Shown: positions 25,776 to 55,828 of the stretch, piece after piece
How the letters are laid out: each line of letters starts with the position of its first letter
Numbering within the stretch: position 1 is the first letter of the stretch
Assembly (NCBI GenBank): GCA_949775045.1
Contig: OX459109.1
Span: forward strand, 3,975,975-4,039,974
Direction of reading: 5' to 3'
From: Metridium senile
Taxonomy: Eukaryota > Cnidaria > Anthozoa > Actiniaria > Metridiidae
Length of the DNA: 64,000 nucleotides
Notes under the pieces: generated by a model
Told to the model about the DNA's origin: nothing
Seen by the model: the letters and a program-made list of their open reading frames with translations, nothing else
Database searches by the model: none
Program-made: the position numbers and the translations under genes

Positions 25776-25950
25776 ACAGGGGAAAGGAAGAAGATCAAAA
25801 GAACGTGAGTCATTATGTTAAATTAAAAGTTCCTAATATAAAGGGAAAAAATGGTAATTTGAGAAGGCTTATCAATTAGGGCGTGATGTGTATGTATATA
25901 AAGGGGATATTTATATCCAGGAGTTTGATGGCAAAGTTTCTAAAAGATAA
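25776..25950 (+). pseudogene. HYD1-like ART pseudogene, terminal exon (copy A)
   Basis: Similar at the DNA level to the last exon of the intact copies: AACGTGAGTCATTATGTTAA, AAAGTTCCTAA, then GCGTGATGTGTATGTATATA, GATATTTATATCCAGGAGTT and GATGGCAAAGTTTC. A frame break and an in-frame TAG near 25875 (TATCAATTAGGG) destroy the frame. The usual 5' half of the exon and the acceptor are gone. The 3' flank (CTAAATCAACCCATTC and the GTCCTC run) is shared with the copies at 31.5 and 34.9 kb, so it derives from the same duplication unit. Confidence 0.75.
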
Positions 25951-26074
25951 CAAAAATGTCTGCAGATAAGTAATTCCCTAAATCAACCCATTCTTTAAGA
26001 TTTCATTAATATTAATTGCATTAGTTCTTGCCATATCTGTGTTACGATGATTCTACTTCATAGTTAAATATGAT

Positions 26075-26108
<34 letters not shown>

Positions 26109-26150
26109 CCGTCCTCGTCCTCGTCTTTGTCTTTGTCCTTGTCTGTGTCC
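26075..26150 (+). repeat. (GTCCTC)n run
   Basis: Six-base repeat with variants GTCTTT. Shorter versions occur downstream of other HYD1-like copies at 31783-31817 and 35229-35240, so it belongs to the duplicated 3' flank. Confidence 0.85.
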
Positions 26151-26876
26151 TGTTATTACAGTTATATGCAAATGTTTTTGAGCACAGCTCTCAGGCAAAA
26201 ACAAAAACTTGGACCGAAAGTCTCAACTTTACGATTGTTCAAAATCATTTGCATCAGCAACTTTAATAAAAAATATCAGTCATTTGCTTGTCTCTTTGTT
26301 CGTCTGGTCTGAATTTAGCTCTTGGAAAATCGCCAATTGTACAAGTGGACGAACAAATAGACGAGCAAAATCAGACGTTAATCTCGTCTCAATTTGTGTT
26401 CGTTCGTAAAATTCTAAAGAATGTATTACAGTCGCTTTAACTGACTTGAGCTTTGGCAATCAGAAAAATTATAAATGCCAAGTAATCCTGTATGCTAAAA
26501 CAATTATTTTACTGCTGAAATAACAAGTGTTTATCGATCATATCTTTTAAAAGAGCTATACAGTTACGAAATTCAATTTTGTTTACACTTCGAAAATGCA
26601 TTTCTCGCGGAGTACGTGTGATGCCGGGAAATCGCCTTATCAAGCCTTCAAGCCTAAAATGTCAAATTTCTCCTAAAATAAAAATCTGTTGAAACTTTCA
26701 CTATTATTTCTGTGATACGGACATCGAGGGCTATCTTTGAGCAAAGTATGAGAAATTCGGTTTCTAGTTGCACACCTATAGTCGATATTCTCAGAGGAAC
26801 GCTCTTAACCCCTAAACCTGAACCTGGCCCCAACCAGCCATAATATAACCCCGCCCTAACCCTAAAACAAACAACT

Positions 26877-26933
26877 TAGCCTGCGTGGCGGCTCTTGGGG
26901 AATGGAAAAACCCTAGAGCCGCCACGCAGGCTA
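26877..26933. mobile_element. 57-bp foldback with TAGCCTGCG ends
   Basis: TAGCCTGCGTGGCGGCTCT and its inverse AGAGCCGCCACGCAGGCTA. The first bases match the ends of the 1.5-kb element at 62205-63692. Confidence 0.7.
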
Positions 26934-27092
26934 GGTCATACTAGTCACATATCGAATTGAAATAAGGCGACCTGCTATATTGTTCTTGGCTGGTTAGCCT
27001 CGTGTTCATATTGAAACACAATGTATGATAAGCTAGCCATGTTAGTTTCGAGGCATGTCATGCATTTTTTTCTTTCTATTTTTATGTGTTTA

Positions 27093-27316
27093 TGTAACTA
27101 CACTTCCACCAAGTACTCCCAAAAATGTTCTTCTTAAGAATAATTATGACAACAACTTGACAAAGGAAGAAAATCAAAGGAACGTGAGCTATGTTGTTGA
27201 ATTAAAAGTTCCTAAAGAAAAAGAATGGCAATTTGAGAAGGCTTATCAATTAGGGCGTGATGTGTATGTATATAAAGGTGACATTTATCTCCAGGAGTTT
27301 GCTTGTCTGACCTGAC
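27093..27316 (+). pseudogene. HYD1-like ART pseudogene, terminal exon (copy B)
   Basis: Open frame homologous to exon 3 of the intact copies: YVTTLPPSTPKNVLLKNNYD, LTKEENQRNVSYVVELKVP and DVYVYKGDIYLQEF. The acceptor of other copies (TTTTTAG|GTGTTT) reads TTTTTATGTGTTT here, so the splice site is lost. The coding end diverges after QEF and is followed within 10 bp by a transposon (27326-27579), so the normal FDGKV end is missing. No exon 1 or 2 was found. Intron-2 remnants (GTTCTTGGCTGGTTAGCCT) precede it. Confidence 0.75.
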
Positions 27317-27325
27317 CAAAACGTA

Positions 27326-27579
27326 TACACCTAATTCAAAAAAAGGTTGACGGGGCGAACGGCGATCAGCGATTGGTGATCGGCGATTGCACGTTCCGAA
27401 AGAGACTGTGGATAATACGAATTTCTTCTTATTCAATTATATATTACCCAAATACCGTTCAACGATGACCGTAGATGGGTGTCTCGAAGTTTTCTCTGAA
27501 CCGTGGAGGCATTGTTTGGGCAATTTAGAAACGAATAAGGTCGCCGTTCGCCCCGTCAACCTTTTTTGAACTAGGTGTA
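27326..27579. mobile_element. TACACCTA-ended MITE (254 bp)
   Basis: Terminal inverted repeats of about 40 bp: TACACCTAATTCAAAAAAAG with GGTTGACGGGGCGAACGGCG at left, mirrored at right. It is a member of a family with TACACCTA ends found five times in the window. It truncates the copy B exon. Confidence 0.8.
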
Positions 27580-27736
27580 TTCATTGGCTGATTGTCTTGT
27601 AATGTAAGAATTGTTTTGTTTTGTGCACGGTCACGGTTGGCAAAAGTGAACAAAAAAATAGAACAATGAGTTCCCTGTATAACCATCTCATTCTATTAAC
27701 TCTGATTAGACTTATAAATTAGCTGTCATTAGTAAC

Positions 27737-27792
27737 CCGTGAAACATTCTTTAGTGATCACTCTTTAACTACACTTTGTTTCACGGGTTAAT
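27737..27792. mobile_element. Partial GAGTGG-family MITE
   Basis: AACCCGTGAAACA ... TGTTTCACGGGTTAAT palindrome, homologous to the inner ends of the elements at 52787-52966 and 59831-60151. Confidence 0.6.
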
Positions 27793-28238
27793 AAGAACAA
27801 CTCTAGCATGTACAGTATTCTCTTACTAGTCGATTATCGCACGTTTGATTGTATGTAGAGTATGTACATGTACAGTACTTGCATTAAAAAAAAAACCGTT
27901 AACAATATAAACTGCATTCAGGATAGTATCAACTAATGGTAAATTGCCTGGTTTGCTGTTGATTATTTCAAGTGAAAATACTATATTAGTGAAACATTAG
28001 AAATACCGTTTCATGTAATTTTATTGTTAATTTATTTAGCTTGAGCTATTTTTATTAATCTGTGAAACACACTTTTGTGTATCAATCTTTGATGTACCTT
28101 TAGTCTCTTGTTGCTTGTTATGACAAGTCTACTTTTATAGCTAAATTAAAAGAAATCATTAATTGTAGTATTCATGTATTGTATTTTTAAAAACACAAAC
28201 CGCCCAAGGCTATGTTAATGTTTGCAGACCCGTGGGTA

Positions 28239-28830
28239 CAAGGGAGCACGGCAGACTGTTGTTGTGGTTTGAATATACACCTATTTCAATAATCGTTGTC
28301 GCAATTAAAGCTACAGTCCACACTATGAAGCCTGCAAAGGATGTGATTTCTTCTCTTGTCATCGATTTATTCATAGCATATTTTAATTGTACGTGTTTGT
28401 GTTATATGACCATAACAAGTTGTTGCAGTGGTAAATATAAATACAAACATTTCTTTAAAAACGTGCAATGAATCCAAGTCCATGTAGCCGACATCCTTTG
28501 CAGGCTTTAGTGTGGACTGTAGCTTCGGCTGCGACAACGATTTTTGAAATAGGTATATATATTCGATCTTTTGAAAGTTTTAAATTACATCGTCAACCGT
28601 TTTTGGTAAATTAATGGGACTATCCGCTAGCAAGTGAAAACTGCGGGCAAGCCTGCCTCTGCGAGCGAGTCCCGAAGGACTTACAACTATCGGGCGACAC
28701 TCGCCGACATTGCAGGACTCGCTCGGCAATGATAATTGCGCCTGCATTTCTACTGGTCAGTCGATTGACGAGAATATTCAAAAGATCGAATATATTCAAA
28801 CCACAAACAACAGTCTGCCGTGCTCCCTTG
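28239..28830. mobile_element. Long palindromic element hosting a nested MITE
   Basis: Left arm CAAGGGAGCACGGCAGACTG ... GGTTTGAATA and right arm mirrored (ending GCCGTGCTCCCTTG at 28830). The left arm is interrupted by the TACACCTA element at 28276-28557; after it the arm continues with TATTCGATCTTTTGAA, matching TTCAAAAGATCGAATA in the right arm. Confidence 0.8.
28276..28557. mobile_element. TACACCTATTT MITE nested in the palindrome (TA target)
   Basis: Ends TACACCTATTT and AAATAGGTATA, flanked by TA at 28274-28275 and 28558-28559. Subterminal inverted repeats include TACAGTCCACACT, GCCTGCAAAGGATGT and their mirrors. The intact right arm of the host palindrome shows the empty site GAATATATTC, proving a TA duplication. 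Confidence 0.85.
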
Positions 28831-29650
28831 GTGGGTATGTGTAATTTAGCTTGTACAATATGTATTGTATGAAATAAAATTGTTTTTGTCACAGTCATTG
28901 TCATTGTCCACAATGGGTTACTTATGCTTGTTACCATTGTTATTATTATGTGAATGTTAACAATAAAACAGAGTTTCGCTTTGTAGAGTTACATAAAGTC
29001 AATAAAATACGAATTATCATTAAATATAATCATCTGTATTAAAATTATCAAGAGTCTAGTGCATGTCTCCAATAGATCTTTTCACGGTTCACGTCCACAA
29101 CCCCAGCCTTAGCTTGATAGCGTGTAATATATATTTTTACCACATTTGATAATTTTCTCGCTTTCTGATTGGTGGAGAGCCGTGGTAAATCAGAGTACAC
29201 ACCACGGTTTCTATTTTGCTCATTTTCTAACTGTCTCGTGGTTCCACAACAATTTAGACGATTCGATGACGGCCAACCGTGGTGAATAAGAGGACATACC
29301 ACGCGAAACTATTGTAAGTTTGTTAAATCCTTTACAATTAATTAACTATAGTTTGCAGAAATTTAAGAAATGACACATTATCAAACAATTGAAATACTTC
29401 GAAATTCTTAGAATTTGTAGTCAAATTCTAAACTATTTATTATTTTAGGACCTTCAGGAATCCTTAAGGGAAAAAAAGGAAAGAAAGAAAGATGAATAAA
29501 ACAAAACAAAACCAAAAAATAAGCAAAACAAACAAATAAAAACGAAGCAAAGCAAATTTTTCAAACGAAACAAAGCAAATTATAAAATTCTTAAATTATA
29601 CTGTATTTTAGTTTTACGCAATTTTACGTTTTACGCGCACCCATATATAT
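28831..29650. other. No recognised gene; A-rich stretch
   Basis: Includes an AAAC/AAAG-rich stretch at 29470-29580. No exon supported. Confidence 0.4.
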
Positions 29651-29654
29651 ATAG

Positions 29655-29868
29655 CTAATCTTTGTCAGAAAGAATGTTTCTTTTGCAAAAATGTTTTCAA
29701 ACCTTGCATTCATTTTGTGCTACTCGTGTATTTTTTGATTGACAAGGTCACTGGACAAGGTCCTGCAAAAGGCCTATAACGTAGACGTAGTCTTATACGC
29801 CATTCAACGTCTTGAGAAACTACGAGGGCTGACTAAACCTTTTCTTAATTAAAAGAAATCAAAACAAA
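29655..29868 (+). promoter_or_regulatory. Promoter/5' UTR of HYD1-like copy C
   Basis: Shares blocks with 41050-41745 and 54085-54215: CTAATCTTTGTCAGAA, TTGCATTCATTTTGTGCTA, CTTATACGCCATTCAACGTC and the leader up to the ATG at 29869. The TATA-like element is weaker (CCTATAACG near 29774) than in copies D, E and H. Assignment is by paralogy. Confidence 0.5.
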
Positions 29869-31513
29869 ATGTGGGGCATTTCAGGCTATAAAAAGGTAAG
29901 GATGAATACTTCTATATTTACAATCCATAATCAATTAACTTCAATTGATTCATTTGACTAATGCACTAACATTGGTAATCTTCCAAAACCAATCCAATCA
30001 TGTCACAAAATAAAACACAGTAAAATTAAAAATCATATAAAGCTGCTGATATGGCATGTAAACGTTGTAAAACTGCGTAAAAATATCATGAAAACTAACA
30101 TAAAATGAAAATGAAAGTTACCAAATTTCTTCTTGGTTAGTTGCGATGCTTGAAAAAAAAAAATTAATTAATGAAAAAATGTTAAAAAATCTTGTAGCTG
30201 CACTCGATCTCAGGTTTTTGAATTCATCGTTTTATAATTGTCGGTGAACCTAAACTAGCTGTATTTAATATTAACGTGAAGTTAGCGAACATTTTGGCAC
30301 AGTTTCCAAGAATGTAGATTGTATGTGTAATAATCAAACGCAATTCTTCTTCGAAATAGCTGAAGTACATTGAGATTAACACTAGCTTTCTTTGTATTAA
30401 TAGTGATAGCTATCTATAAAGCAACTTTGTCTCTACATACTACACAAAACCTCGAAATATCCACTGTTTGTACAACAACATGCCAATATCACCGTGCATA
30501 CCATCGATCTCGACAGTGTACTAACTGTAGACACATGTGCGTAAGCTATAGTTGAATTGCATGTTTTGATGCGCGCAAACATTGACGACCTGACACTGAG
30601 GAATTCGAAGGCTTGAGTGTGATCCAAAACGCCTGTCTTTATCGATGACCCCGTTTTCTTTTCTTTCTTTATTTGTTTTTCTTTATTTTTGTTTGTTTTT
30701 GTTTTTTTGCACTCTTTTGTAAATAAGTGTATTGGGGGAGGAAGGGGGTGGCCTTTTGTGATTTTTTTCATATTTAAAGACTGAAACATTTTTATTTTTG
30801 AAAAAGTGGTGCAACTAGTTGTAGAATTGTACTTAATCTTAAAGTTCTGACATAATCTCGTAGAGCTAGCTTCGTACTTCCAGATGTACACACGATGGCC
30901 AATGTTTTACATATATGGCTTTGAATTGTGTGATGCTCTTAATATGCCCTATATATGTTTTACTATAGAAAACTTTCTATCACTACACTACTGAGGAGGG
31001 GGCAGACGGAATTAAAGAAAATGGTGTAATCAAGGCTAGCGTTGCTACGCCGTTAACAGATGATGCAGTGGCAGGATCAGGTATTGCTTAAATTGGCTCG
31101 GTCATAGATTATACGTGAGTTGAGTCTGTTTGATGTGTTCTTCTATGCCACGAGGGATTTTCTTCGGGTTATCTCATGTGCAAATTAAAATCATCAGGTC
31201 ATAGTCAAATTATGTGTATGGTGTATGTGATTACCTTTTTTGGTTCTTATGTTAGTTTCGACTCTTTTCACGCATTTCTTTTCCATTTTTAGGTGTTTAT
31301 GTAACCACACTTCCACCGAGTACTCCCAATAATGTTCTTCTTGTGAATAATTATGATGGCAACTTGACAAAGGAAGAAAATCAAAGGAACGTGAGCCATG
31401 TTGTTGAATTAAAAGCCCCAAAGAAAAAATTTGAGAAGGTTCGATCACGTGTGTATATATATAGAGGTGATATTTATATCAAGGAGTTTGATGGCAAAGT
31501 TTATAAAATGTAA
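29869..31513 (+). CDS. HYD1-like ADP-ribosyltransferase-domain protein, copy C
   Basis: Three exons: 29869-29895 (9 codons), 30969-31080 and 31293-31513, with GT-AG introns of 1073 and 212 bp, giving about 119 residues. Exon 2 carries FYHYTTEEGADGI, then GVIKASVATP and DDAVAGSG. The codon for the following Gly is split by intron 2, and exon 3 opens with VYVTTLPP, then NQRNVSHVVELKAP, VYIYRGDIYIKEFDGKV. H-Y-T, G-x-G-V-Y-x-T and a late Asp-containing strand fit the HYD1-type ART domain (Pfam Tox-ART-HYD1). Known family members transfer ADP-ribose in bacterial polymorphic toxins; a role in animals is not established. No signal peptide or membrane segment. AATAAA overlaps the 3' side of the stop (31515-31520). 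It looks intact. ART activity is inference. Confidence 0.7.
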
Positions 31514-32453: not shown

Positions 32454-32939
32454 TTCCCTGCTAGCAGAGTCTTCCACAGTTCGATTCTGACGAGAGAAAG
32501 GAAGACTCTGCCGAGCGAGACTGCATTCTTTGTAAAGCCGCCGTCCACAACCGTGGACGAACGAAACCAGTTTTAAAACCGGTTTTACTGGTAATTTTAG
32601 ATGCTTCATCTAAGCATCATAAACCAACTAAATTACAACGAAAAGCTATCAAATCTTTTCTGTCCAAGAGAGACACGTTTGTTTGTCTTCCAACTGGCTA
32701 TGGAAAGTCATACATTTATCAACTTAGCCTGCTAACGGCCAAGCAAATGGCTGCTAAAGCTGGCGATTCGAGCTCAGTCATCGTTGTAATATAAGCTGGC
32801 CGTAAAAACGAAAGGTCATCATGACGTCAGGGGTTGCTTAGTTACCTAACGCATGCGCAACAAAGAATGCAGTCTCGCTCGGCAGAGTCTTCCTTTCTCT
32901 CGTCAGAATCGAACTGTGGAAGACTCTGCTAGCAGGGAA
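32454..32939. mobile_element. TTCCCTGCTAGCAG-ended element with RecQ-like insert
   Basis: Arms of about 80 bp (32454-32533 and 32860-32939) are near-perfect inverted repeats starting TTCCCTGCTAGCAGAGTC. Flanks AAAGGAAGC (32445-32453) and AAAGGCAGC (32940-32948) make a 9-bp duplication with one mismatch, which is typical of Mutator-like (MULE) elements. The core encodes a helicase fragment. Confidence 0.8.
32530..32791 (+). pseudogene. RecQ-like helicase N-terminal fragment
   Basis: An open frame lacking an ATG covers the space between the inverted arms. It contains KLQRKAIKSFLSKRD, then the Walker A motif CLPTGYGKSYIYQ and SSVIVVI before a stop. The order Q-motif-like segment, aromatic/LPTGxGKS and a hydrophobic strand ending in VV is that of RecQ-family helicases (motifs 0, I, Ia). 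The DEAH box and the rest are absent, so it is a fragment. A related broken fragment sits in the element at 62205-63692. Either both elements captured a host gene, or a helicase belongs to the autonomous parent elements. Confidence 0.65.
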
Positions 32940-33047
32940 AAAGGCAGCGAAATCTCAATTGAAAATATACTGGTTACCTGACAAAAAAAATATAATAATG
33001 GTATTAAATATAAAATATATTATGTTCCTCCATATTTTGTCTTTGTT

Positions 33048-33271
33048 GTAAGTTCAACGACTTTGTAACGAGCACGCTGCGCTGGGATTTTCCCGCTTTT
33101 CACGTGATATCCTCTCGCCCAATCAGAGTACGAGAAAAATGAACTTTAACAGTTGGCCAGTATATAACAACACGCCTTTCTGCATTCTTTCTCTTGAGAC
33201 CGGACCGTTTATACGAAACCACCGTTGGCTAAAGCTTCAATTTCTTCATTTTGTAAAGAATTCAAACCAAC
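33048..33271 (+). promoter_or_regulatory. Promoter of HYD1-like copy D
   Basis: TATA box TATATAA at 33161-33167, about 110 bp before the ATG. Upstream blocks GCGCTGGGATTTTCCCGCTT and CCTCTCGCCCAATCAGAGTA (with a CCAAT-type CCAAT) are conserved in copies E and H. The leader has CTCTTGAGACCGGACCGTTT. Confidence 0.75.
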
Positions 33272-34911
33272 ATGAGTAAGGTAAAATGAATGTTTATCAC
33301 TTTCAAACTATAATCAATTTATTTAGAGTAACTTGTTCGAGATAGCGAACACAAATCGAAATTCATTCCAGTCTTGTAACAAAAACAAAATCGGAACAAA
33401 ACATCAAATTAAACTGAAAACTATAGACACTATACTTTATACCTTATAAGTGATAAAAGGGAGTAGTATCTTTGAAAACTTTGCCGTAGAATAACGTAAA
33501 AGAAAAATGATAAAGAAACTATAAATTTAAAGTGATACCTGAGTATATTCAATAGCTTCGATGATTGTAATGTTCTATTAACTGCATCGTTTTAAAACTT
33601 TCACTACTCGCTTGTTAGCTACTAATGATTTCTCATGCTCAAAGCATAATCAATTTCTTGATAGTAATTCGAATTTGTTCTAGTGTTATTAGGTAGCGAC
33701 TAGTCGCCTAACAACATCATCTTCCAAATTAATTCAATCTAGTCTTGTCACAAAATATAACAGAATCAAACATACAATGAAAGTGCTAGCTACCCTGTTC
33801 AATATCTAAAAATTATTATTAAAAAGTAGATTGAAAATGAAAATGAAAATGAAAATGAAAATGAAAGTTACTAAATGTTTACTGTTAGGCCAAGGAATTG
33901 TTATTGTGTGCTGACGCTCGTTGAATGCAACGTGCGTCGTAAAATATCAAAGATGCGTATTATTTTTTCATCGAAAATAGTTGTGGTCATATAATAAAAA
34001 TCTTATTAACCGAGCTTGGTCGATCGGTCTGTGCAGGAAAATCTTGACCATGGTCGGATTTTCGTTATGGTTAACTTTATAATAAAAAAAAAATTACACG
34101 GCGGCTTGAAGATGTAAAGTTTATCTTCTTCAATCGATCTACTGCAATAGTTCACTGCGCTCACTCGTGAAATATTTGTTTACCACTCGATAAACTTGAT
34201 ATTTATTCCCGCCACCGTGTATAATATGCTCTATGTATGTTTTACTATAGACACATTTCAATCACTACACTGATGAGGAGGGGGCAAAAGGAATTGAAGA
34301 AAGTGGCGTAATCAGAGCTAGCGTTGCTACGCCGTCAACAGATGATGCAGTAGCAGGACCAGGTATTGCTCAAATTTACTTCAGTGACTTTTCAACTAGT
34401 GACAGTGCTGTTTGGTTACGTTCTCGTAACCCCAACGAAAAACTCCAGCTGTCGCCAGGGTAAACTTAAATCATCAGGTCATATAGACCGAATTTATCAT
34501 AAGGTGAACTCTATATATTGTTCTTGACTGGTTAGCCTATAGTGTTCAAGTTGAAAGAGGCTAGCATGTCAAAAAGAATAGCTATTCAAATTGGTCGCTG
34601 CGTCTGCGATTACCCTTTTAATTTGGTTCTTATGTTAGTTTCGAGCCCGCCTTTCATACATTTCTTTTCCATTTTTAGGTGTTTATGTAACTAAACTTCC
34701 ACCAAGTACTCCAGATAATGCTCTTCTTATGAATAATTATGACAGCAACTGGGCAAAGGAAGAAAATCAACATAACGTGAGCCATGTTGTTGAACTAAAC
34801 GTTCCTAGAAAAGAAGCACGAAATTTTGAGAAGGTTCGAACAGATGTGTATGTACATAAAGATGATATCCATATCCAGAAGTATGATGGCAAAGTTTCTA
34901 AAAGAAAATAG
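33272..34911 (+). CDS. HYD1-like ADP-ribosyltransferase-domain protein, copy D
   Basis: Three exons: 33272-33280 (Met-Ser-Lys), 34251-34362 and 34679-34911, with introns of 970 and 316 bp; about 117 residues. Exon 2 has FNHYTDEEGAKGI and GVIRASVATP; its last base joins exon 3 to form the G-V-Y core (VYVTKLPPSTPDNALLMN in exon 3). The exon then gives NQHNVSHVVELNVP, DVYVHKDDIHIQKYDGKV and a basic end. Phases and splice sites match copy C exactly, which supports the model. Compared with C, the first exon is only three codons. A strong TATA box lies upstream and an AATAAA follows near 35162. Intron 1 contains a (GAAAAT)n run at 33832-33866. It is intact by eye; function is as for copy C. Confidence 0.72.
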
Positions 34912-35536: not shown

Positions 35537-35760
35537 TGTTGTAAGTTCAACGAATTTGTAACGAGCACGCTGCGCTGGGATTTTCCCGCTTTTCACATGA
35601 CATCCTCTCGTCCAATCACAGTTCGAGAAAAATGAGCTTTGACAGTTGGTATATAATAACACGCTTTTCCGCGTTCTGTCTCTTGAGAACGGACCGTTTA
35701 TACGAAACCATCGTTGGCTAAAGCTTCAGTTTCCTAATTTTATAAAGATTTCAACACATT
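35537..35760 (+). promoter_or_regulatory. Promoter of HYD1-like copy E/F
   Basis: Paralogous to 33048-33271 (GCGCTGGGATTTTCCCGCTT, ACATCCTCTCGTCCAATCAC). TATA box TATATAATA starts at 35650. Leader CTCTTGAGAACGGACCGTTT leads to ATG at 35761. Confidence 0.75.
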
Positions 35761-38700
35761 ATGGCTGTTAAGGTAAGAATTAATATTTCTCGTTTTCAAA
35801 CCATAATTATTTATTCAGAGTTACTTTCGAGTTCAAGTATATATTAAGTGGCGACTTTTCGAATCATAACCGATAATCTTCGACTGATCCAATCCAGTCT
35901 TGTAACAAAATTTTCGGAGCAAACCATCAAATAAGCTGACGACTATACAATATACATTATAAAGGATAGCAACGTAGTAGTATCGATCATTGAAAACTTC
36001 GTTAGATTACGTAAAATAATCGTGATAAACAAACTAGATATGAAGTGAAATCGAAAATGAAAATGAAAGTTGCTGAACCAGAGCACATTCAATAGCTTCG
36101 ATCGTGATGGTTCTGACACTTTCACCAGTTGATATTCTTAGTTTAAAGTTATCATCAATGTATATTTTATTAAATGTAAGAACATTCAAACAAAATTGAA
36201 TATAATAGGGGGGAAAAACTACAGTTACTTGCAGTCCCGACGTTATTTAATAGATAGCCACTGAGGTATATTGCAGCAGCCCGCGAGGGCAAACTGAATT
36301 CATATGGAGTTATATGTTTACTATATAGATATCAGCTTTCTATCACTATACTACTAATTAAGCAAGTAGCAAAAGGAATCAATGAAATTAAAGGAGCCTC
36401 AACCACGCCGTGCATGCATTGCGCGTTGAGTCGGCCATTTTCGTTACCATCGAAAATACCCTTTCTATGACATAGTTTAAAAATCCAATTGAATATTGAA
36501 CATCCTAACATTTACAACCAAAATTTGAACTCAGTGTTGTTCCTTATTTATTATGTATTCGTTTTCTGAAGTTATTTTTCATATTCTGTGGTTTTAAGAT
36601 GTATATTTTTCAAGTTTTATACGAGCAACTGAAATCTGTTCTAAGTGTCTTCAAAACCGGAAAATGGTCACAAATAACCTTTATGCAAGATCTATCTTCA
36701 ATGATTTTTATTTAAACCATTAATAGACGTTTCGTATACAATGTGTTTGTTCATTTGTAGGGTCTCTGGCATAACTAAACCAAGATAAAGACTTCGAAAA
36801 GTAGAGAATTATATCGGAAACGGCGTGTGAGTCATGTGTTGATTTACTCGAGGAATTCATGTTGTTTCTGTCTTATTGATCTATGCATAACATCGAAGGA
36901 ATTATCAACACAACAAATCTTTTAATATATATAGAATCGCTTTACATTCATAAACAAACACTCATGCCTTCATGTACCTAGAATTAAAATCAAAGGAGAT
37001 ATTTTTAAAAAGACTGAAATGACATTTCGATTAGCCGTCACATCATGAAAAGACAGTCTAATGTTATTGTGCGCTTCGACTGACAGTGTCGATGCCTTAC
37101 AACCCGGGCTTACAAACACATTTGGATTCTTCTTATATATATAACTTGTATTTTATATTCTTGTTTGCCAAACACTGCCATAACCGTATATAAAAGCCAG
37201 CGTTCTTGTCACTGCATGACATCCAAGGTATCGAGCTGTTTATGTCCTGTGTCGTACATGTTCAATTTACAAAGGCTTACCTAGTGATCATGAAATAAAA
37301 TTCAATAAGACTTTGTTTTAGGTGTATTATTTACAAAGTATTTTTAAACAAAACTTAAAACATGTTATTGGAGAATTCAGACAATGTTCATGTATTTACA
37401 ATACGACTAGAAGCTTCAGTCTTTTCGATCGAGTCCGAGTCATTCTAATTAGCAAATCGAATGTGGTTTAGCGTTGTCTGTACTCTTATCGACAACGATA
37501 TTCGTCATGACAGTGGTCAAAATGTTGTGGACTCACGACGCGCAGCGGAGTGAGTCAGCAACAAATTTTGATCACTGTCATGACGAATATCGTTGTCGAT
37601 AAGAGTAAAGACAACGCTAAACCACATTCGATTTGTTTTTTACAACACAAACCAAAATAAATGTACAAAAAGTAAAATGTCAGTTAACGGACGAAAAATG
37701 ACGAATTTGTCACGCATCGAACTCAATGGTTTCTCTTCAAGCTACGGAAAATCACATAGTCTTCACATAATTTACAAAAATGATCTTTTTTCAGCCGGTA
37801 AAAAACAAATAAGCTTATTTTCATACAGAAATACAGTGCACTGTTTGTCTTGAGAGACTGCTAATTGAAGTTAGAAAAGTACAAGAACGTCAAACACGGC
37901 CGATTAACTGGGTTCTGGTGAAACGTTTTTGAAAATTTTCAAACAAAATGCATTTTTTATACATTAAAACTGATCATATAGAAGATTACACAATATCTGA
38001 TATGTCTAGCATTTGAACAACATTCTAAGCTTTTCAAATCAGTTCTGAACGAATGGTATTGTTCGTCAGCACGTTTTTGTTGAAAAGACTACAGAATTGA
38101 TTGTGAGTGAAGATTTGTCGAAAAGACTGAAAAATCGCATAAAATTAAAACGACAACAGCTCCATGACAGCATAGTTACATTTATTACAATTTTCTACTT
38201 ACAGAAAAGTAATTTCCATTGATAGTTTATCCATAAACTTCTTTTTAAAATCCTTTTTTGACGAAAAAACTTTGTGGATGACAAACTTTCCCTCAATTAC
38301 GCACGAGTGTTGTGTGACATGATGACGTGATCACCGTTGTCTGGACTCTTATTTACCACGGTAAATCAACCAATCAGCGCGCGAGAATTCACACAAGTGT
38401 TGTAAAAAAGTTCTTCTAACGTATTCGCTAAGCATTCACAATTATATCTTTGCAAATATTTACTTTACTGACACTATCCTCATTCATTCCTATCGATTTC
38501 TAGGCTACTTTGACTCCAATTTGTCTTTTAGATAAAACGCAACGCTGGCGAAAGCTCGAATTGCAAGCATGTAGACAATAATAGAGGCGCGCAAAGCATC
38601 GTGGTTGAGACGGCTCCTTTAAGTGCATGGTATTTTGCTAATATAAAAAACATATTAACTAGTAGTTACATCATGGAAGTGAAATTAATTCTGCAAGTGG

Positions 38701-39703
38701 AATATGGTATTCATAATAAATGATAGTTTATTGTTGTCTTCGTAATTAGTGCTACAGTTGTAGCTAATGTCTGTAACTACAAATGACTCAGTTACTCTAT
38801 ATGCCTGACTTCGTTTAGGATATCATTTTTGTGCCGTTTTTTTTTAATAAACTTCATTCATCCAGCTACCGTGTGTGTGTCTATATAGCACCATGCGCTC
38901 ATTTAAAATATTTTTTTTACTTGAAAACCATCTTCGTATCTTCTCGCCAGTATTACCACTACACTACTCAAGCAGGGGCAAATGGAATTGCAAGAACTGG
39001 TAAAATCAAGGCTAGCGATACAGTAAAAGATGCAGTAAAAGGAAGAGGTATTTATTGAATTTAATTTTTTCTCAATATATTGTTATAAAAAAAATGGACA
39101 CAATTGAGAAAATTGAGAAGCCGGAAATCGCTTGAATCGGGTGGACAGTCATTTATTTTCAAAAGGTCGAGGGGTAAGAAGATATTTATACGTTTAGCAC
39201 TGAAGGCCTTAGCTTCAATTGAAGCTCAATTTTGAGGATTTTACCCCCCCCCCCCCCCCCCCCCCCCCCTCCTAATAATTATTGCACAGTCCCTTACATA
39301 ATATTACCTGCTACACAATCATCTCAACCGACACAGGAAGTCCAAAAGACTATGGCAAGCATAAAAATTCTTCTATAGTATTTGCATGAAAATATTCCAT
39401 GACGTCAGTCAGTTTTGAGGCCTGACACATATTTTTTCATTATTAGGTGTTTATTTTACCAAACTTGGACCAAATAATACGGATAAAGTTCTGCTCAAGA
39501 ATAACTATGGATGGAACTTGACAAAGGAAGAGAATCGAAAGAACGTTAGCCATTACGTTGAAATAACAGTTCCTAGCGATAAAGCTGGAGAATTTAAAGA
39601 TGTTGGCAAGTCGGAGCAGCGTGATGTGCATTTATATGCAGCCGGTGATATTGATATCACGAAATTTGGTGGCAAAGTTTGTGAAAGGAAATCGGTCAAA
39701 TGA
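35761..39703 (+). CDS. HYD1-like ADP-ribosyltransferase-domain protein, copy E/F
   Basis: Proposed exons: 35761-35772 (Met-Ala-Val-Lys), 38951-39047 and 39447-39703; about 121 residues. Exons 2 and 3 carry YYHYTTQAGANGI, GKIKAS, then VYFTKLGPNN, NRKNVSHYVEITVP and GDIDITKFGGKV. Sites are CTCGCCAG acceptor and AGAG|GTATTT donor, with phase as in C and D. The first intron would be 3178 bp and holds a fossil exon 2 (36336-36391) and a 2.2-kb TTAA-flanked transposon, so exon 1 probably once served another copy and now may splice to this one. The downstream exons are clear. The link to exon 1 is inference and needs RNA evidence. The short loop between KAS and DAV differs from C and D (this copy lacks the VATP segment). 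Confidence 0.6.
36336..36391 (+). pseudogene. Fossil exon 2 of a HYD1-like gene
   Basis: After ATATCAG comes CTTTCTATCACTATACTACT, the start of exon 2 of this family (FYHYTT), but with an immediate in-frame TAA. The remainder is cut by the TTAA-flanked element that starts at 36392. Confidence 0.7.
36392..38618. mobile_element. 2.2-kb TTAA-flanked element (Kolobok/piggyBac-like)
   Basis: TTAA at 36388-36391 and 38619-38622. Ends AGGAGCCTCAACCACG and CGTGGTTGAGACGGCTCCT are inverted, apart from a 3-bp difference. It carries an internal palindrome (37453-37635) and no recognisable transposase. It interrupts the fossil exon 2 of the HYD1-like family. Confidence 0.7.
37453..37635. mobile_element. 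Nested foldback with CAAATCGAATGTGG ends
   Basis: Left CAAATCGAATGTGGTTTAGC and right GCTAAACCACATTCGATTTG are exact mirrors; further inward GACAACGATATTCGTCATGA is mirrored too. Arms reach about 75 bp around a short loop with GACGCGCAGCGGAGTGAGTC. Confidence 0.85.
39243..39269 (+). repeat. Poly-C run in intron 2 of copy E/F
   Basis: About 27 consecutive C residues; length may be uncertain in the assembly. Confidence 0.9.
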
Positions 39704-40249: not shown

Positions 40250-40745
40250 TAATGCCATAGCTGCCATGTTGATTGAATCTTCCTTGATTTTCCTAATCAC
40301 ATGGACACCGAATATCAAAAGGCGTTTTTTAACTACTGTCAATCAAAAATATCAAAGCGCCGACAATATATTTTTGATTGATAGAATCAAAAAACGCCTT
40401 TTGCACGTTGTTATTTTGACTTTGGTGTCGATTAATTAAGGGAATTACAGTAACAAAAGACGCATCTGCAGTCTAAGTCAGCGTAGTTCTTTTAAATAGT
40501 TGATTATCACACGTTTGATTGTATGTAAAGTGCTTGCATTATTCTAGTAACAATAATTGTATTAAATAGTACTAATTTATATTCCCTTGTTCCTTGTACG
40601 TTTGTTATTAATTGTTTGATTAAAATGCAAATATTATATTCGTAAAACATTACTACATGAATGTCTCAACTTTTTAGCTCAATATCTTTAAATTAAGACT
40701 ATGACAATCTGTTGAAATCATTAAAAATAACAAGGGTTTGTCATA

Positions 40746-41044
40746 TACACCTATTTCAAAAACCTTTGTCGCAAACAAAGCCACAGGTCCACACTCTAAA
40801 GTCTGCAAAGGATGTCGGTATTTCTTGTCTTGTTATCGATTTATTCATAGCATTGTTGGTTGTACTTGTTTGTGTTGTATGACCATCAGTAACAAGTTGT
40901 TACAGTGGAAGATGATGAAACAAATATTTATTGAAAAACGTTTAATAAATCACAAATTCTGTTCATATTACCGACATCCTTTGCAGGTTTCATAGTGTGG
41001 ACTGTGGCTTTGTTTTCGACAATGATTTTTGAAATAGGTTTATA
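40746..41044. mobile_element. TACACCTATTT MITE, second copy
   Basis: Homologous to 28276-28557: TACACCTATTTCAAAAAC, AGCCACAGGTCCACACT, TGCAAAGGATGTCGG and mirrors, ending ATTTTTGAAATAGGTTTATA. It is absent from the paralogous position near 53200. Confidence 0.75.
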
Positions 41045-41049
41045 TAGGT

Positions 41050-41745
41050 AATCTTTGTCAGAATGATTGATTGTTTTCAGTGACAAAATTTTGCATTCAT
41101 TTTGTGCTATACGTATAAGTTTTGATTGATGTCGTGGATAGCCACGATTGGGCTCCCTGTTTACATAGAATTCCGTGCGCATGCGCAAGCAGGCACGTGG
41201 CTTCGGAAGAAGAAAGGGTTTGAGTCGTTCGTCGTTGTTCGTCAACTTTACTTCATTCTAATCCACCAATTATTCACCACAATTGACAAGCTCCCGTAAC
41301 TTTAGTATCTCCTTCAAAAAGTCTATAGTATAGACTTACGCCATAAAACGGACATCCTCGGGAACCCAGGGGTATTCTTCTGTCGCTCGTTTCTCGCTTC
41401 CACAACATATACCCCTGGGAACGTAGTCTGTTGGAGCTTGTTCCGGAAGTCATTATTATGAACTTATGAACGACTTTCTTTGAATGGTTATCTCGATTTT
41501 CATTGGTCGACCTAATAAGGTCGACCAATCAGGAAAGAGCTGAATTTTGACTTCCGGAACAAGCTCCAACAGACTACGTTCCCAGGGGTATATGTTGTGG
41601 AAGCGAGAAACGAGCGACAGAAGAATACCCCTGGGTTCCCGAGGATGTAAAACGGACAGTTTATAGCGGAATCAACGCGGGGTGACTAAAGCTTCTGTTT
41701 CTTATTGAAAAGAAGTCAAAACAACTTTAATTTTGCTGTACAAAG
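41050..41745 (+). promoter_or_regulatory. Orphan HYD1-like promoter and first exon, split by a MITE
   Basis: Blocks shared with 29655-29868 and 54085-54215: TTGCATTCATTTTGTGCTAT, AGTTTATAGCGGAATCAACG, AAGCTTCTGTTTCTTATTG and a donor CTGTACAAAG|GTAAGG at 41744. Unlike copies C, D, E and H there is no ATG directly before the donor, so this first exon is non-coding or decayed. The next HYD1-like exon downstream is at 51397, almost 10 kb away. Confidence 0.5.
41353..41647. mobile_element. CATCCTCGGGAACCC foldback, 9-bp duplication (MULE-like)
   Basis: Almost perfect inverted arms of about 105 bp (CATCCTCGGGAACCCAGGGG ... mirrored). Flanked by TAAAACGGA on both sides (41344-41352 and 41648-41656). 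A 9-bp duplication with long TIRs is a Mutator-like pattern. The loop contains the palindrome GGTCGACC-TAATAA-GGTCGACC. Confidence 0.85.
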
Positions 41746-47500: not shown

Positions 47501-47740
47501 TGGTAGCCTATGCACCCTAGTCAAAAGGCGTTACAATAAAGATACCTTGTTTAATCATTTTTGCAAAACACCATTGCTTTTGTTAGAAAATGCAGCGAAA
47601 GTAGTAAAATTTAAATAAAGTAACTAAAAATTATAAAAAGCTTTGGAAATAGAAAGATTCGACTAAAAATGTGCACTTTTGCCCTTCGAGCCTCGCTATA
47701 ACGCTTTTGGTACATTTCAAATGCTGATTACTCTGCAGTG
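44551..47740. other. Degenerate, possibly retroelement-derived interior
   Basis: No domain could be named. 45837-46031 has an open frame (HVKRVKLDFPEFVNKPVKDR and EPIEFLGPRPP) with higher GC than its surroundings and a TTTCAG acceptor, but no family match. The stretch lies between two copies of the TGTGCAACC repeat 6.6 kb apart, so it may be the decayed interior of a terminal-repeat retroelement. Low certainty. Confidence 0.3.
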
Positions 47741-47745
47741 ATTTA

Positions 47746-50329: not shown

Positions 50330-50712
50330 TACCCTTCCCATAACTCTTTTGTCCGTAAGCCTTTGTGAAGCATTGTTGCACATTGAATAAATTACTATTC
50401 GATGTGCAACCATGCGTAACAAAGGGTATATAAAGGGAGAAACAATGATAACTCAACAATCGTCGGTCGAGTAGTGAAACTCAGAAAGACGGGGATAAAC
50501 ACATCCATTGATGGGTATCTGAATTGGAAATTAGCTTAGGATTGGGGATGGTTCAACAATAGCCCGACAGGCATTCTTTCATGTTTCCCTCCTCCCACCC
50601 TAGTTCATGATTATGCGCTTCATGCTTCATATCCTGCGGACTCGTACCCTTCCCATAACTCTTTTGTCCGTAAGCCTTTGTGAAGCATTGTTGCACATTG
50701 AATAAATTACTA
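50330..50712. repeat. LTR-like block with split direct repeats
   Basis: A 297-bp unit (50401-50697) starts TGTGCAAC and ends GTTGCACA, has TATATAAAG near its start and an AATAAA just after its end. The last 70 bp of that unit plus TTGAATAAATTACTAT are also present immediately before it (50330-50396). The start of the unit also occurs at 43790-43878. The order A ... B A B recalls the split direct repeats of Ngaro/PAT-type DIRS elements. A plain LTR-LTR junction is the alternative. Confidence 0.55.
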
Positions 50713-51290
50713 TACTCTTACCTGGGGTATACCCCGTATAAGTCAATAACTAGTCAACTCTACGTTTTCAATAACAAAGCCATTAGAATCATGACCTTTT
50801 CTTATTTTTGGTTTCATGTGTCCTCCAACCTATTAATCTTTAAAAATTATCCAGTTTAATGACATTGTATTCACACAAGTTGCAACTTTTATTTGTGATT
50901 ACCATACAACTTTCTTCCAAACAATTTCTGATGTCCATCGTTATAGCACTTGCCACGCCAGAATCAATTTTTTTCTCCTAGTCAGCACTAATTATATGTT
51001 AAATCGTACTTCAAATTTAGCAGAATAACGATCTGGAATTTACTCGATGACTCCATAAAACTACTACCTCGAAAATTATTTATCAAAATAATAAATTAAC
51101 TCTGCTTTTCAGCATATCTGTAATTTTTAGCAATTGCCTTTTCTCGCGTTCGTTTGTATGTGAATTGAAAAAAAATAAAAACATTTCGATTTACATGTAA
51201 ATTTGTCATGCAAACTTAAATATCAACAATTTTTGTTTTTTTAATGAGAAGGCTTTGCAAATTTTTTTAAGCCGTTTTTTGATAATAAAC
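50713..51290. other. No recognised gene
   Basis: Includes TACCTGGGGTATACCCCGTA, a short palindrome. Otherwise AT-rich spacer before copy G. Confidence 0.4.
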
Positions 51291-51396
51291 TTCATATCAT
51301 GTTGCCACCGTGTGTGTGTCTGTCTATACAGTATACAACAGTTTGCGCGCTCTCACTTGTAAAATATTTTTTACCAACTTCGTATTTTCTCGCCAG

Positions 51397-51953
51397 TATT
51401 ACCACTACACCAATAAAGAGGGGGCATATGGAATTGCAGGAACTGATACAATCAAGGCTAGCGATCCTTACATTGCAGATGCAGTAAAAGGGAGAGGTAT
51501 TTATTGAATTTAATTTTTTCTCAATATAATCTTATCAAAATAATATTGGTTGATATATGAATTGGGTAAAACATTGATGCAAACTGCATGTGTTTGACAG
51601 GAACCCGAAAGACTATCGCAAAACTAAAAATCGTATTTGCATGCAAATGCTCCATATATCAGTTTTGATGCCTGACACATACTTTTTCACTGTTAGGTGT
51701 ATATTTTACCAAACTTGGCCCAAATAATTCGGATAAAGTTCTTCTCAAGAATAATTATGGTTGGAACTTGACAAAGGAAGGGGATCGAAAGAACGTTAGC
51801 CATTACGTTAAAATAACAGTTCCTAGCGATAAAGCCGGAGAATTTAAAGATGTTGGCGGATCATCGGACCGTGATGTGCATTTATATGAAGACGGTGATA
51901 TTGATATCACGGAGTTTGATGGCAAAGTTGAAAAAAGGAAATCGGTCAAATGA
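51397..51953 (+). CDS. HYD1-like ADP-ribosyltransferase-domain protein, copy G (partial model)
   Basis: Exons 2 (51397-51496) and 3 (51697-51953) are open with correct splice sites (CTCGCCAG acceptor, AGAG|GTATTT donor, TGTTAG acceptor) and end at TGA. They give about 118 residues, including YYHYTNKEGAYGI, DTIKASD, then VYFTKLGPNNSDKVLL, DRKNVSHYVKITVP, DVHLYEDGDIDITEFDGKV. It is the closest relative of copy E/F; the surrounding 1.9 kb is a segmental duplicate of 38.9-40.7 kb. No start exon was found nearby: the closest upstream first-exon module (41658-41745) lacks an ATG and lies almost 10 kb away. It may be expressed through a distant promoter or be an unexpressed duplicate. Confidence 0.6.
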
Positions 51954-52070
51954 TCATTGCAGCTAGCTTATTCTTTTAATCAACCTAGTCCTTACGATTT
52001 TCTTAATAATTGTAGTACGTTGTGCATGCCATATCTGTAACACCAAGCTTTTTGCTATTGTAGAAGAGTA

Positions 52071-52539
52071 TACACCTAATTGAAAAAACGATGTCATGTT
52101 TGAAACGTAAATCATAGATCGTAGATGAAGTGGAGACTAAAGTTCTGGATGGGATGTTAACAAAACAAAACACTTTCAATACTGACAGTGTAGAATGCAC
52201 CAGCATGGTAATTAAAGACAAATCTTATACGTATCTGTATACACCTAATTGGAAAAACGATGTCATGTTTGAAACGTAAATCATAGATCATAGATTGTAG
52301 ATCGTAGATAATAGAAGTAGAGACTGAAGTTGTGGATGTGATTTTAACAAAACAAAACACTTTCAATACCACTCCAACAGTCTCGGTCTTCATATAGAAT
52401 GCACCAGCATGGTACTTACATGTAAAGACAAATCTGATGCATACCTTTCATTAAAATCCCATTCACTACTTCGTTCCCGCTTCTATAATCTACGATCTAT
52501 ATTCTAAATACACGATAATGTTATTTTCAATTCGATATA
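52071..52539. mobile_element. TACACCTAAT MITE, paralogous copy
   Basis: Same insertion site as 39821-40249 (ATTGTAGAAGAGTA flank). The right end has decayed (AATTCGATATATA). It holds a second internal start TATACACCTAATTGGA at 52239, a partial tandem duplication. Confidence 0.75.
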
Positions 52540-52786
52540 TAATGCCATAGCTGCCATGTTGATGGAATCTTCCTTGATTTTCAAAATCACATGGACACCG
52601 AATATCAAAAGGCGTTTTTTTACTACTGTCAATCAAAAATATCGCGACAATATATTTTTGATTGATAGAATCAAAAAACGCCTTTTGCACGTTGTTATTT
52701 TGACTTTGGGCTCGATTAATTAAGGGAATTACAGTAACAAAAGACGCATCTGCAGTCTAAGTGTAGTTATCTTAAATAGTTGATTA

Positions 52787-52966
52787 GAGTGGTTTTCATT
52801 AACCCGTGAAACACACTTTAGCGTAATATGCTTTATTACACTTTATTACACTTTAACTCTAACTTTGTGTTTTATAATCATTTGTTCAATATCACTATTA
52901 CACATTAATACACTTAATTACTCTTTCTCTATTACACTTTGTTTCACGGGTTAATGAAAACCACTC
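52787..52966. mobile_element. GAGTGGTTTTCATTAACCCG MITE (180 bp), TA target
   Basis: Inverted ends GAGTGGTTTTCATTAACCCG and mirror; TA at 52785-52786 and 52967-52968. The paralogous locus at 40498-40510 (GTTGATTATCACA) lacks it, giving an empty site. Confidence 0.88.
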
Positions 52967-53257
52967 TATCACAAGTTTGATTGTAATGATGTAGAGTGCT
53001 TGCATTATTATAGTAACAATAATTGTATTAAATAGTACTAATTTATATTCCCTTGTTCTCCTTGTACGTTTGTTATTAATTGTTTGATTAAAATGCAAAT
53101 ATTATACTCGTAAAACATTAGTACATGAATGTCTCAACTTTTTATAGCTCATTATCTTTAAATTAAGGCTATGACAATTTGTTGAAACAAGGGTTTGTCA
53201 TGCTTGTTTGTGAGATACAGCTATTGACGTTTGTAAAGAAATGTATGGGAAATGTCA

Positions 53258-53284
53258 AAAACCGGACAACTTGTCCGGTTTTCC
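53258..53284. repeat. Short palindrome AAAACCGGACAA/TTGTCCGGTTTT
   Basis: 12-bp arms around a single base. No terminator or promoter role can be claimed. Confidence 0.6.
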
Positions 53285-53520
53285 TTACATTTCTTCATAA
53301 ATTTTCAACTTTTGAATGGCTGTATTTCACACAATATTAAACCAATCAACACCAAACTTCAGGATTTTGTAAAGCTTGACAAGGTTTCTTTGATTATGTA
53401 AATCAAATCTTGTTTAACAAAGTTTAAGGCAATTCACCCCAGCCCCTAGCTAAGTTTAACGGCTTTAAATCCGGCAATGTCCTTCAAAAAGTCTATAGTA
53501 TAGAGAATACTACTGACATT

Positions 53521-53649
53521 GAAAGTGCGCGCGTACGGAATTTACGTACGAGTTGGCCGTATCAGTAATTAAACGAGCGAGGCTTTGCGAGCGAGTGAGA
53601 TTTCTGATACGGCCAACGAGTGCGTAAAAATTTGTACGCGCGCACTTTC
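53521..53649. mobile_element. GAAAGTGCGCGCGTAC foldback
   Basis: 129 bp bounded by GAAAGTGCGCGCGTAC and mirror; inner GTTGGCCGTATCAG / CTGATACGGCCAAC. GC-rich compared with its surroundings. Inserted within the duplicated promoter segment. Confidence 0.75.
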
Positions 53650-54084
53650 CATGTACTATTTACTTTGTTACTCAGCAATTTTATATCAATTTTTTATAAT
53701 TTTTTACCTCAATGTCTTTTCCTTCATGTTTTTGTTATCGAGATTCTTTACGGTAATCCTCCGGTGAATTTCAAAGTTTACAAATCATTCTGGCTCCATT
53801 TTTTTTACTTTTTTATCGCTTTTTGTGGAGTTTAGGTCAACTAAACAACACTTGCTAAATGAGCGAAGGAAGCTGAATGAAAAAGAAAGCGAGCGCCCGT
53901 CAAACAAACCACGACATGGCGGGAATTTCCCCGCCGTGAAAAACATCGTACGCGGCCTGTGATTAGACGTATCGTTTTTCTCACACGTGAAAAACATCGT
54001 ACGCTAGCTCTGGTTGGTCAGAGTTTATTTACGAACGACAATTTACAATATGGCTTTACAGTGAATATAACTCAGTATGTATAT

Positions 54085-54215
54085 AATAAAGACTTATACG
54101 CCATTCAACGTCTTGAGACTGGACAGTTTATAGCGGATCAACGCGGGGCGACTAAAGCTTCTGTTTCTTATTGAAAAGAAGTCAAAACAACTTTAATTTT
54201 GCTGTACAAAGGTAA
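54085..54215 (+). promoter_or_regulatory. Orphan HYD1-like promoter and non-coding first exon
   Basis: Nearly identical to 41658-41745 (GACAGTTTATAGCGGATCAA, AAGCTTCTGTTTCTTATTG, CTGTACAAAG|GTAAGG) with a TATA-like GTATGTATATAATAAAG at about 54076. No ATG before the donor. The following intron-like sequence (54216-55090) is paralogous to 41746-43020. No HYD1-like exons follow in the window before the next module. Confidence 0.5.
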
Positions 54216-54244
54216 GGTTAGATATTTTTCCTTTTTGAAGCATA

Positions 54245-54392
54245 CACACAAAAAAAAGTATATAAGACAACCATCATCCAGTCTACACCATCGCCTCAGT
54301 GATGAAGACTAGCAGATTGCAGTCGAAACGTCGCGGTATTTCTACCAATGACCTCAATCGTGAGACAATTGATCAAGTATCCTTTTAATACA
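54245..54392. mobile_element. Insertion absent from paralogous segment
   Basis: Relative to 41778, about 150 bp containing GCAGTCGAAACGTCGCGGTA and CATCGCCTCAGTGATGAAGA is inserted here. Similar GACGTTTCGA-GACATCA sequences lie at 44830-44870 and 60037-60070, so it is a dispersed repeat. Confidence 0.6.
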
Positions 54393-55117
54393 CAATTTAT
54401 TCAGATTGAATTTGTTCGAGTATTATTAGTGTCGACTGGCGACATAATCTTCGAAATTTAATCAATTCTTTCAAGGTTTTCATTGAAGACTTTTTAAAAT
54501 TGAGTAAAACTTTCACGAAAACTAACATCAATTCAAAATGAAAATGAAAATTCTTTTAAAGTGTTAGTTACTTTAAACATATGCCAAGTAACGTGTGTGC
54601 TTTTGGGGGAACCCCCTTATCAAGACGACCTTGTTTCTATATGTGTTACATTGCTCACGTGACTACAAATGTCAATTACAATACGAATTACAACTTCTTC
54701 ATTTAATACTAAAGCATTACTTGCTAACATATATAAATATTACAATATTTGTTGCTTAAGTCTTGGTTCGAATTCTAATCTACTCTAATTTACAAAATGA
54801 AAACGGACTCGTGCTGTTAGGGGATTCCCCTTATCAAAACGACCTTGGTTCTGTACGTGTTACATTGCTCACGTGACTACAAATGTCAATTACAATACGA
54901 ATTACAACTTCGTCATCTAATACAAGTTTTACTTGCTAACATATTATTCTTGGTTCGAATTCTAATTTATATCCAGCTACAAAGTAACAGTCACAAAATC
55001 GTGATGCGCGCCATTTTTCATTAAAACTTGAAAAAAGGTTTAGGCGCTAGACTAGCTGTTTTAAAAATAAATTAAAATTAAAATATCTATCATACTTACG
55101 CTTTTTTGTCTTTTTGT

Positions 55118-55816
55118 ATGTTCAACGACATTATAACGAGCGCGCTGAGCTGGGATTTTCCCGCTTTTCAAGCCAATCAAGGTTGTAAAGCTCAATCAAC
55201 TTCCGTTTTTGTTAGTTTCGGGGAAATAACATATTGTTGCCCTTTGAAAGGAAACGTGTTCACGTGATACCCTCTCGCCCAATCAGAGTACGAGAAAAAT
55301 TAGCTTTGACAGTTAGTAATGTAACGAGATTAGCTCTCGTGACTCTGCGTGACAATAAGTTCCGGTACGTGTCTATAATCGGCGCTCCCTGACGTTACTT
55401 CGCTATCCGATTACGGGATGCGTACGTGTACAGTAATTATGTAATATTCTGGATCTTTCTTTACGTGGGCGTGTTCCTTACTTGTAACTAGAATTAACCT
55501 ACGTGTGTATAGGCGTAGACATGACGTGTGTAACTAATTTAGTCTTAGAATTGTAATAAATAGAGCACAAATTGTACTACTTAGTTAGTTCAGTCCGGAG
55601 TTGGAAACACGGTCAATCAATAAACAGCCTTATAGTACCGATTCTAGTCGTACTCTTGACTTCGCCTCGCCGAACCCATTCAACGGTCCGTTACAGTATA
55701 TAACAGCTCACTTTTCGTCGTTCTTCGTCTCTTGAGACCGGTACGTTTCAGTATACGAAACCATCGTTGGATGAAGCTTCAGTTTCTTAATTTCATCTGA
55801 AAGATTTCAAAACATC
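55118..55816 (+). promoter_or_regulatory. Promoter of HYD1-like copy H, invaded by an LTR
   Basis: Matches copies D and E (GAGCTGGGATTTTCCCGCTT, CCTCTCGCCCAATCAGAGTA, then TATA box TATATAAC at 55697, leader with GAGACCGG). A 98-bp insertion lies after CCCGCTTTTC, and a 376-bp LTR-like insert ends directly before the TATA box. Confidence 0.65.
55320..55695. mobile_element. Solo LTR-like insertion
   Basis: Starts TGTAACGAG and ends CGGTCCGTTACA (TG...CA with 7-bp inverted tips). Contains AATAAATAGAGC and CAATCAATAAACAGCC. Flanks GTAA / GTAT suggest a 4-bp duplication with one change. It lies between the CCAAT-like block and the TATA box of the copy H promoter. Confidence 0.6.
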
Positions 55817-55828
55817 ATGAGTGTTAAG
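55817..55828 (+). CDS. First exon of HYD1-like copy H (rest not in window)
   Basis: ATG AGT GTT AAG followed by the donor GTAAGAATGAATAT, identical in layout to exon 1 of copy E and preceded by the same leader. Intron-1 sequence up to about 56100 is paralogous to 35773-36090. No exon 2 or 3 follows before 64000, so either the gene runs out of the window or it is a truncated duplicate. Confidence 0.5.

Follow-up and report, generated by a model that had tools for sequence, protein, structure and literature searches.

The stretch studied here, called the window, comprises 64,000 nucleotides of the Metridium senile genome (C15:3975975-4039974) and contains an array of small genes on the plus strand that very probably encode ADP-ribosyltransferases (ARTs) of the HYD1 type. 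Between positions 25776 and 55828, three loci, A, B, and C, could be modelled as complete genes of three exons, and a fourth, D, was found without a first exon. Two remnants of exon 3, a fossil exon 2, and three pieces resembling first exons complete this part of the array. In a hidden Markov model (HMM) search, all four spliced products exceeded the Pfam gathering cut-off of 25 bits for PF15633 (Tox-ART-HYD1), in agreement with the family assignment proposed in an initial annotation of this DNA. The loci and coordinates given there for A to D matched the gene models built here, and the exons that it described as dead, fossil, or orphan were likewise located in the sequence. The features were as follows:

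29869-31513, plus strand: gene A, exons 29869-29895, 30969-31080, and 31293-31513; product of 119 amino acids, 30 bits to PF15633
33272-34911, plus strand: gene B, exons 33272-33280, 34251-34362, and 34679-34911; product of 117 amino acids, 25.4 bits to PF15633; H, Y, and D motifs retained
35761-39703, plus strand: gene C, exons 35761-35772, 38951-39047, and 39447-39703; product of 121 amino acids, 36.4 bits to PF15633; H, Y, and D motifs retained
51397-51953, plus strand: copy D, two open exons (51397-51496 and 51697-51953) and no visible exon 1; product of 118 amino acids, 26.6 bits to PF15633
25776-25947, plus strand: remnant E, an exon 3 with a broken frame
27088-27300, plus strand: remnant F, a truncated exon 3 without an acceptor AG
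36336-36400 (approximate ends), plus strand: fossil exon 2 within intron 1 of gene C, its motif-bearing frame (near 36338) interrupted by stops
33158-33271, plus strand: upstream region of gene B, 83-90% alike to those of gene C and of the first exon at 55.8 kb
35649-35760, plus strand: upstream region of gene C, of the B type
41700-41745, plus strand: first-exon-like piece with a donor and no adjoining ATG, the surrounding sequence being 96% similar to the piece at 54.2 kb
54170-54211, plus strand: first-exon-like piece with a donor and no adjoining ATG
55817-55828, plus strand: orphan first exon with an ATG, four codons, and a donor, preceded by an upstream region of the B/C type

In tblastn comparisons within the window, the copies matched each other with E values down to 1.9e-29 (A against B, exon 3), and given this value and the PF15633 scores above the cut-off, their likeness is not due to chance. 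The His of motif 1 (YHYT) and the Tyr of motif 2 (GVYxT) were unchanged in A to D and invariant in all 18 aligned homologues. The third motif, RD[VLI], has its D directly ahead of a predicted strand, and from this place in the model we infer that it serves as the catalytic acid. This residue was D in B, C, and D and R in A; among the homologues it was replaced by N in P0018 and P0020 and by Q in P0022, while a bacterial relative, L017, has E at this place in our alignment. The accessible part of the founding description of HYD1 tabulates [FY] for motif 2 and [DE] for motif 3, plus an [RK] position (PMC3482391), and the catalytic acid of the HYD1 subclade is itself presented as doubtful in the portion available of a later study (PMC11125620).

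Two homologues, P0001 and the Exaiptasia protein P0002, were modelled with mean predicted local distance difference test (pLDDT) values of 87.2 and 87.7. Among the matches listed, the structural neighbours of both models were mostly named ADP-ribosyltransferases and included Tpt1/KptA, PARPs, TreTu, TreX, DarT, Scabin, and Tne2. An ART-like fold is thus predicted for these two homologues, and the fold expected in the initial annotation was recovered to that extent. A sequence search of the PDB gave matches at E values of 0.14 or worse only. No homologue was found in a single-sequence protein search, whereas an alignment search did retrieve homologues, including named proteins of Exaiptasia, Nucella, and Pecten. 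It was also noted that 10 of the 25 homologues (P0008, P0010-P0017, and P0019) lose similarity near one place, mostly after an end resembling ...GK, suggesting an intron left unspliced at a position unlike those in the window genes.

All introns were of the GT-AG type. Intron 1 was in phase 0 in A, B, and C, and intron 2 was in phase 1 in A to D with the junction G|GVY, in line with the conserved intron phases noted in the initial annotation. Exon 1 encodes only 3 to 9 residues, exon 2 carries YHYT, and exon 3 carries the remainder, including GVYxT and RD[VLI]. The products of A, B, and C are stand-alone proteins in which the HYD1 domain is not the C-terminal part of any large Rhs or secreted polypeptide. 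The conservation of promoters claimed earlier held for B, C, and the first exon at 55.8 kb, the upstream regions of which were 83-90% identical (90% for B against C), but not for A, the upstream region of which gave no alignment to that of B (48%) and showed a weak likeness to the piece at 54.1 kb (68%).

The array continues past 55.8 kb, the limit given in the initial annotation. The next exon 2 after the orphan first exon at 55817-55828 was found beyond the window at window-equivalent position 70300, in a damaged copy, G, which covers window-equivalent positions 70300-70857 and starts 6.3 kb beyond the window end, so that the array reaches to about 70.86 kb. Besides G, no further copy was identified within 80 kb on either side of the window. 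Exon 3 of copy G was without its first part, in place of which there was a run of C (L001:6710-6731), which may either hide the missing part or represent an assembly fault. Another such run was present in intron 2 of gene C (39244-39269). Furthermore, the frame of copy G continues past the exon-3 similarity (L001:6732-7019) into a stretch that is hydrophobic as judged by eye and that could be a membrane segment.

A search of the whole genome (389 Mb in 169 contigs) revealed a second array, an expansion that exceeds what was originally proposed. The matches in the genome are lower bounds, the search scoring the best candidates only. With A as the query, there were at least 28 matches at E values of 1 or below, with 12 in the array of the window, 13 on contig C1, one on C11, and two elsewhere on C15; with C as the query, at least seven matches were obtained at an E value of 0.01, every one in the window array. 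The two weak matches on C15 (2.60-2.62 Mb) and the one on C11 had E values of 0.23-0.51 and were not counted as members. The second array, located at C1:52875731-53019902, contained at least 13 exon-3 matches, all on the plus strand and spanning 144 kb, four of which had E values of 0.001 or below. We examined 12 of these 13 places (11 stretches and L035, giving members L035 and L037-L047), leaving the one at 52984100 unread. Exon 3 was open with an acceptor in all 12, and the motif-3 residue was D in 10 of them and N in the other two, L038 and L041. Seven stretches contained an exon 2, which was 112 nt long in every case and was joined to exon 3 in phase 1, as in the window copies. The one joined C1 product that was scanned scored 24.9 bits, slightly below the cut-off for PF15633. 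A Pfam scan of the whole genome gave no match to the family at an E value of 0.001, and the controls were silent too, which we attribute to the introns.

Maximum likelihood trees were inferred from two data sets, a smaller one with 14 of the 25 homologues (P0025 cut to 115 residues) and a larger one with 11 of the 25 homologues and seven of the 12 C1 copies as joins of exons 2 and 3. In the larger tree, the seven joined C1 products and P0002 from Exaiptasia were placed on one side of a branch with 100/99 support. The four window copies grouped together with 89/88 support, and with 71/83 support in the smaller tree. A single group of both arrays and P0002 was present in 11% of 200 bootstrap trees and is thus unsupported. 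This grouping, in trees rooted by midpoint only and with P0002 on a long branch, suggests that the C1 subfamily predates the split from the line of Exaiptasia and that tandem duplication enlarged each array.

To describe the divergence among the copies, we compared A with B and C with D. The exons were 83.5-89.5% alike and the 3' flanks 87-91%, whereas intron 2 was 67-72% alike; in contrast, intron 1 of C was 88% alike to that of the first exon at 55.8 kb. The ratio of nonsynonymous to synonymous substitution rates (dN/dS) was 0.51 for C and D and 0.82 for A and B. In neutral simulations, C and D differed by 23 amino-acid changes against 30.0 expected (P 0.0075), which indicates constraint, and four deeper pairs gave P values from 0.004 to 0.047. 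For exon 3 of the C1 copies, the median dN/dS was 0.73 over 66 pairs, with 12 pairs above 1. Such values are consistent with rapid change under constraint that is weak or shifting, and by themselves do not demonstrate positive selection.

We lean slightly toward the interpretation that these genes form an animal tandem family of stand-alone, intron-bearing HYD1 ARTs, fast-evolving mono-ADP-ribosyltransferases that act inside the cell in conflict with microbes or viruses and whose likeliest target is RNA or the translation machinery. Each complete gene comprises an upstream region, a start exon of 3 to 9 codons, an exon with the His motif, and an exon with the Tyr and Asp motifs, giving a predicted product of 117 to 121 amino acids that is nearly all catalytic fold. 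The protein would act inside the producing cell, an intracellular location being likely from the sequence since the short start exon puts the His at residue 14 in A, 8 in B, and 7 in C, too near the start for a signal peptide to precede it. There it would bind NAD+, and the motif-3 acid would assist the transfer of ADP-ribose to RNA or to the translation machinery, which would halt the multiplication of microbes or viruses in the cell.

By analogy, RNA or the translation machinery appears to be the likeliest target, because of the targets described for related toxins and because the models structurally resemble the tRNA 2'-phosphotransferase Tpt1/KptA and toxins of the Tre group. According to the accessible parts of these studies, Tre23 of Photorhabdus, a member of PF15633, acts on 23S rRNA (PMC8636562, PMC9990079), YarT of the HYD1 subclade probably acts on guanosine (PMC11125620), and TreTu modifies the translation factor EF-Tu (PMC10469887). 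RhsF, an ART toxin whose triad differs, is likewise described in the available text as modifying RNA in vitro (PMC13324451). We judge a role in intracellular conflict to be about evenly balanced, and RNA itself to be a possible, if somewhat improbable, target. Two observations tell against accepting the initial interpretation at full strength: copy A is without the motif-3 acid, having Arg in its place, and the 33 amino-acid changes between A and B, against 34.7 expected (P 0.34), are not separable from neutral change.

It is unlikely that the same fold instead serves to modify host proteins in ordinary signaling, as do the mono-ADP-ribosylating PARPs, or to remove NAD+ in the manner of Tne2-type NADases, with no RNA target. 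Among the first rows from Foldseek were PARP14 and PARP10, both VIA lists contained Tne2, and the structural neighbour TreTu modifies a protein, EF-Tu. Against this reading stand the rapid tandem turnover, which would be unusual for a housekeeping modifier, and the actions on 23S rRNA of Tre23 and, probably, on guanosine of YarT, as given in the portions available (PMC9990079, PMC11125620). A more specific and rather doubtful version of the preferred reading is that a cnidarian has converted an RNA-modifying toxin fold of bacteria into two large, rapidly evolving arrays encoding immune effectors of the cytosol. These would stop infection by adding ADP-ribose to RNA, either foreign or the cell's own, and certain copies, such as A, would have become regulators without catalysis. 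We consider it improbable that the genes represent pseudoenzymes or decaying duplicates of an old family that has lost catalysis and is kept as binding proteins or relics. Such decay would agree with the broken or incomplete pieces (remnants E and F, copy G, the fossil exon 2, and the orphan first exons), with the replacement of the motif-3 D by R in A and by N in L038 and L041, and with the high dN/dS values; the 12 open C1 exons 3 with acceptors, the constant length of 112 nt in the seven readable exons 2, the constraint on C and D, and the unchanged H and Y motifs in A to D argue against it. That the assembly is contaminated or contains microbial DNA, which would agree with a founding paper that, in its accessible part, has the family in bacteria only (PMC3482391), was rejected as exceedingly improbable on the introns, the placement of the arrays on contigs of 15.9 and 66.4 Mb, the named animal homologues, and flanking open reading frames (ORFs) read by eye as G-protein-coupled receptor, C-type lectin, CUB, and VWA genes, in line with the animal setting assumed from the start.

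With regard to the origin of the family, the accessible part of the founding paper records HYD1 from several phyla of bacteria and from no eukaryote (PMC3482391). A first scan of genome contigs for relatives retrieved none, and a second contig scan retrieved three loci, consisting of one HYD1 protein, L017, and two DUF2971 loci that were set aside. L017, from a Lachnospiraceae genome (80 bits), was 36% identical to C over 76 columns, and judged from such sequence comparisons a transfer from bacteria into animals is plausible. No relative was found of P0002 in plasmids, of P0006 in phages, or of A1 and A5 in viral contigs.

The window genes share with PF15633, a domain of bacterial polymorphic toxins, the HMM match, the motifs with H and Y, the acid of motif 3 in most copies, and a small predicted ART-like fold, but differ in being stand-alone, tandemly expanded animal genes with two introns, without Rhs, HINT, or secretion parts. 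The YarT-YbiA system of myxobacteria similarly contains a small single-domain ART of the HYD1 subclade, but YarT shares an operon with a NADAR antitoxin, as far as the available text describes it (PMC11125620). Tox-ART-HYD2 is listed in cnidaria, choanoflagellates, Capsaspora, and fungi in the accessible part of PMC3482391. It is thus also a bacterial-type ART in eukaryotes, but a separate family, the window products matching HYD1. Pierisin and the DNA-ADP-ribosylating proteins of shellfish are examples of animals using bacterial-toxin-like ARTs. Those proteins differ from the window genes in that pierisin's kin belong to the R-S-E class in the part of the founding paper available (PMC3482391) and in that pierisin-1 has a size of 98 kDa in the accessible record.

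In a literature search with most subscription journals outside its scope, no title or abstract start among the records listed described a eukaryotic HYD1 family. The HYD1 domain is already labelled in animals in databases (Pfam on P0002 and P0003); no description of the arrays, the gene structure, or the expansion was found in the literature searched. If the interpretation is correct, the two tandem intron-bearing arrays, with relatives in sea anemone and molluscs, would add an ADP-ribosyltransferase family to animal biology, and antimicrobial ADP-ribosylation of RNA or protein by HYD1-type enzymes in animals would become testable. HYD1 enzymes have so far been portrayed, in the accessible texts, as bacterial weapons, one of which the animal may have repurposed.

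No immunity gene was recognized by eye among ORFs of at least 130 amino acids within 80 kb, smaller or spliced genes and HMMs not having been searched. No match was obtained in NCBIfam or, within the window, in Rfam, and the matches from PADLOC and PHROGs had E values of 0.017 or worse and were taken as noise. Several further features were noted in and near the window. An element of 486 bp with perfect inverted ends of 80 bp and a DEAD-helicase fragment (35 bits) was located between A and B (32454-32939). A stop-to-stop frame of 1078 amino acids on the minus strand (10298-13534) had a reverse-transcriptase match of 25.9 bits, below the cut-off of 29.6, and an ORF at window-equivalent positions -5123 to -3594 (L009, plus strand) was read by eye as resembling a Maverick-type packaging ATPase. 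Finally, long palindromic elements resembling miniature inverted-repeat transposable elements (MITEs) were situated between the copies (28273-28560, 37453-37635, 40743-41045, and 41352-41648), and these may drive rearrangement of the array.

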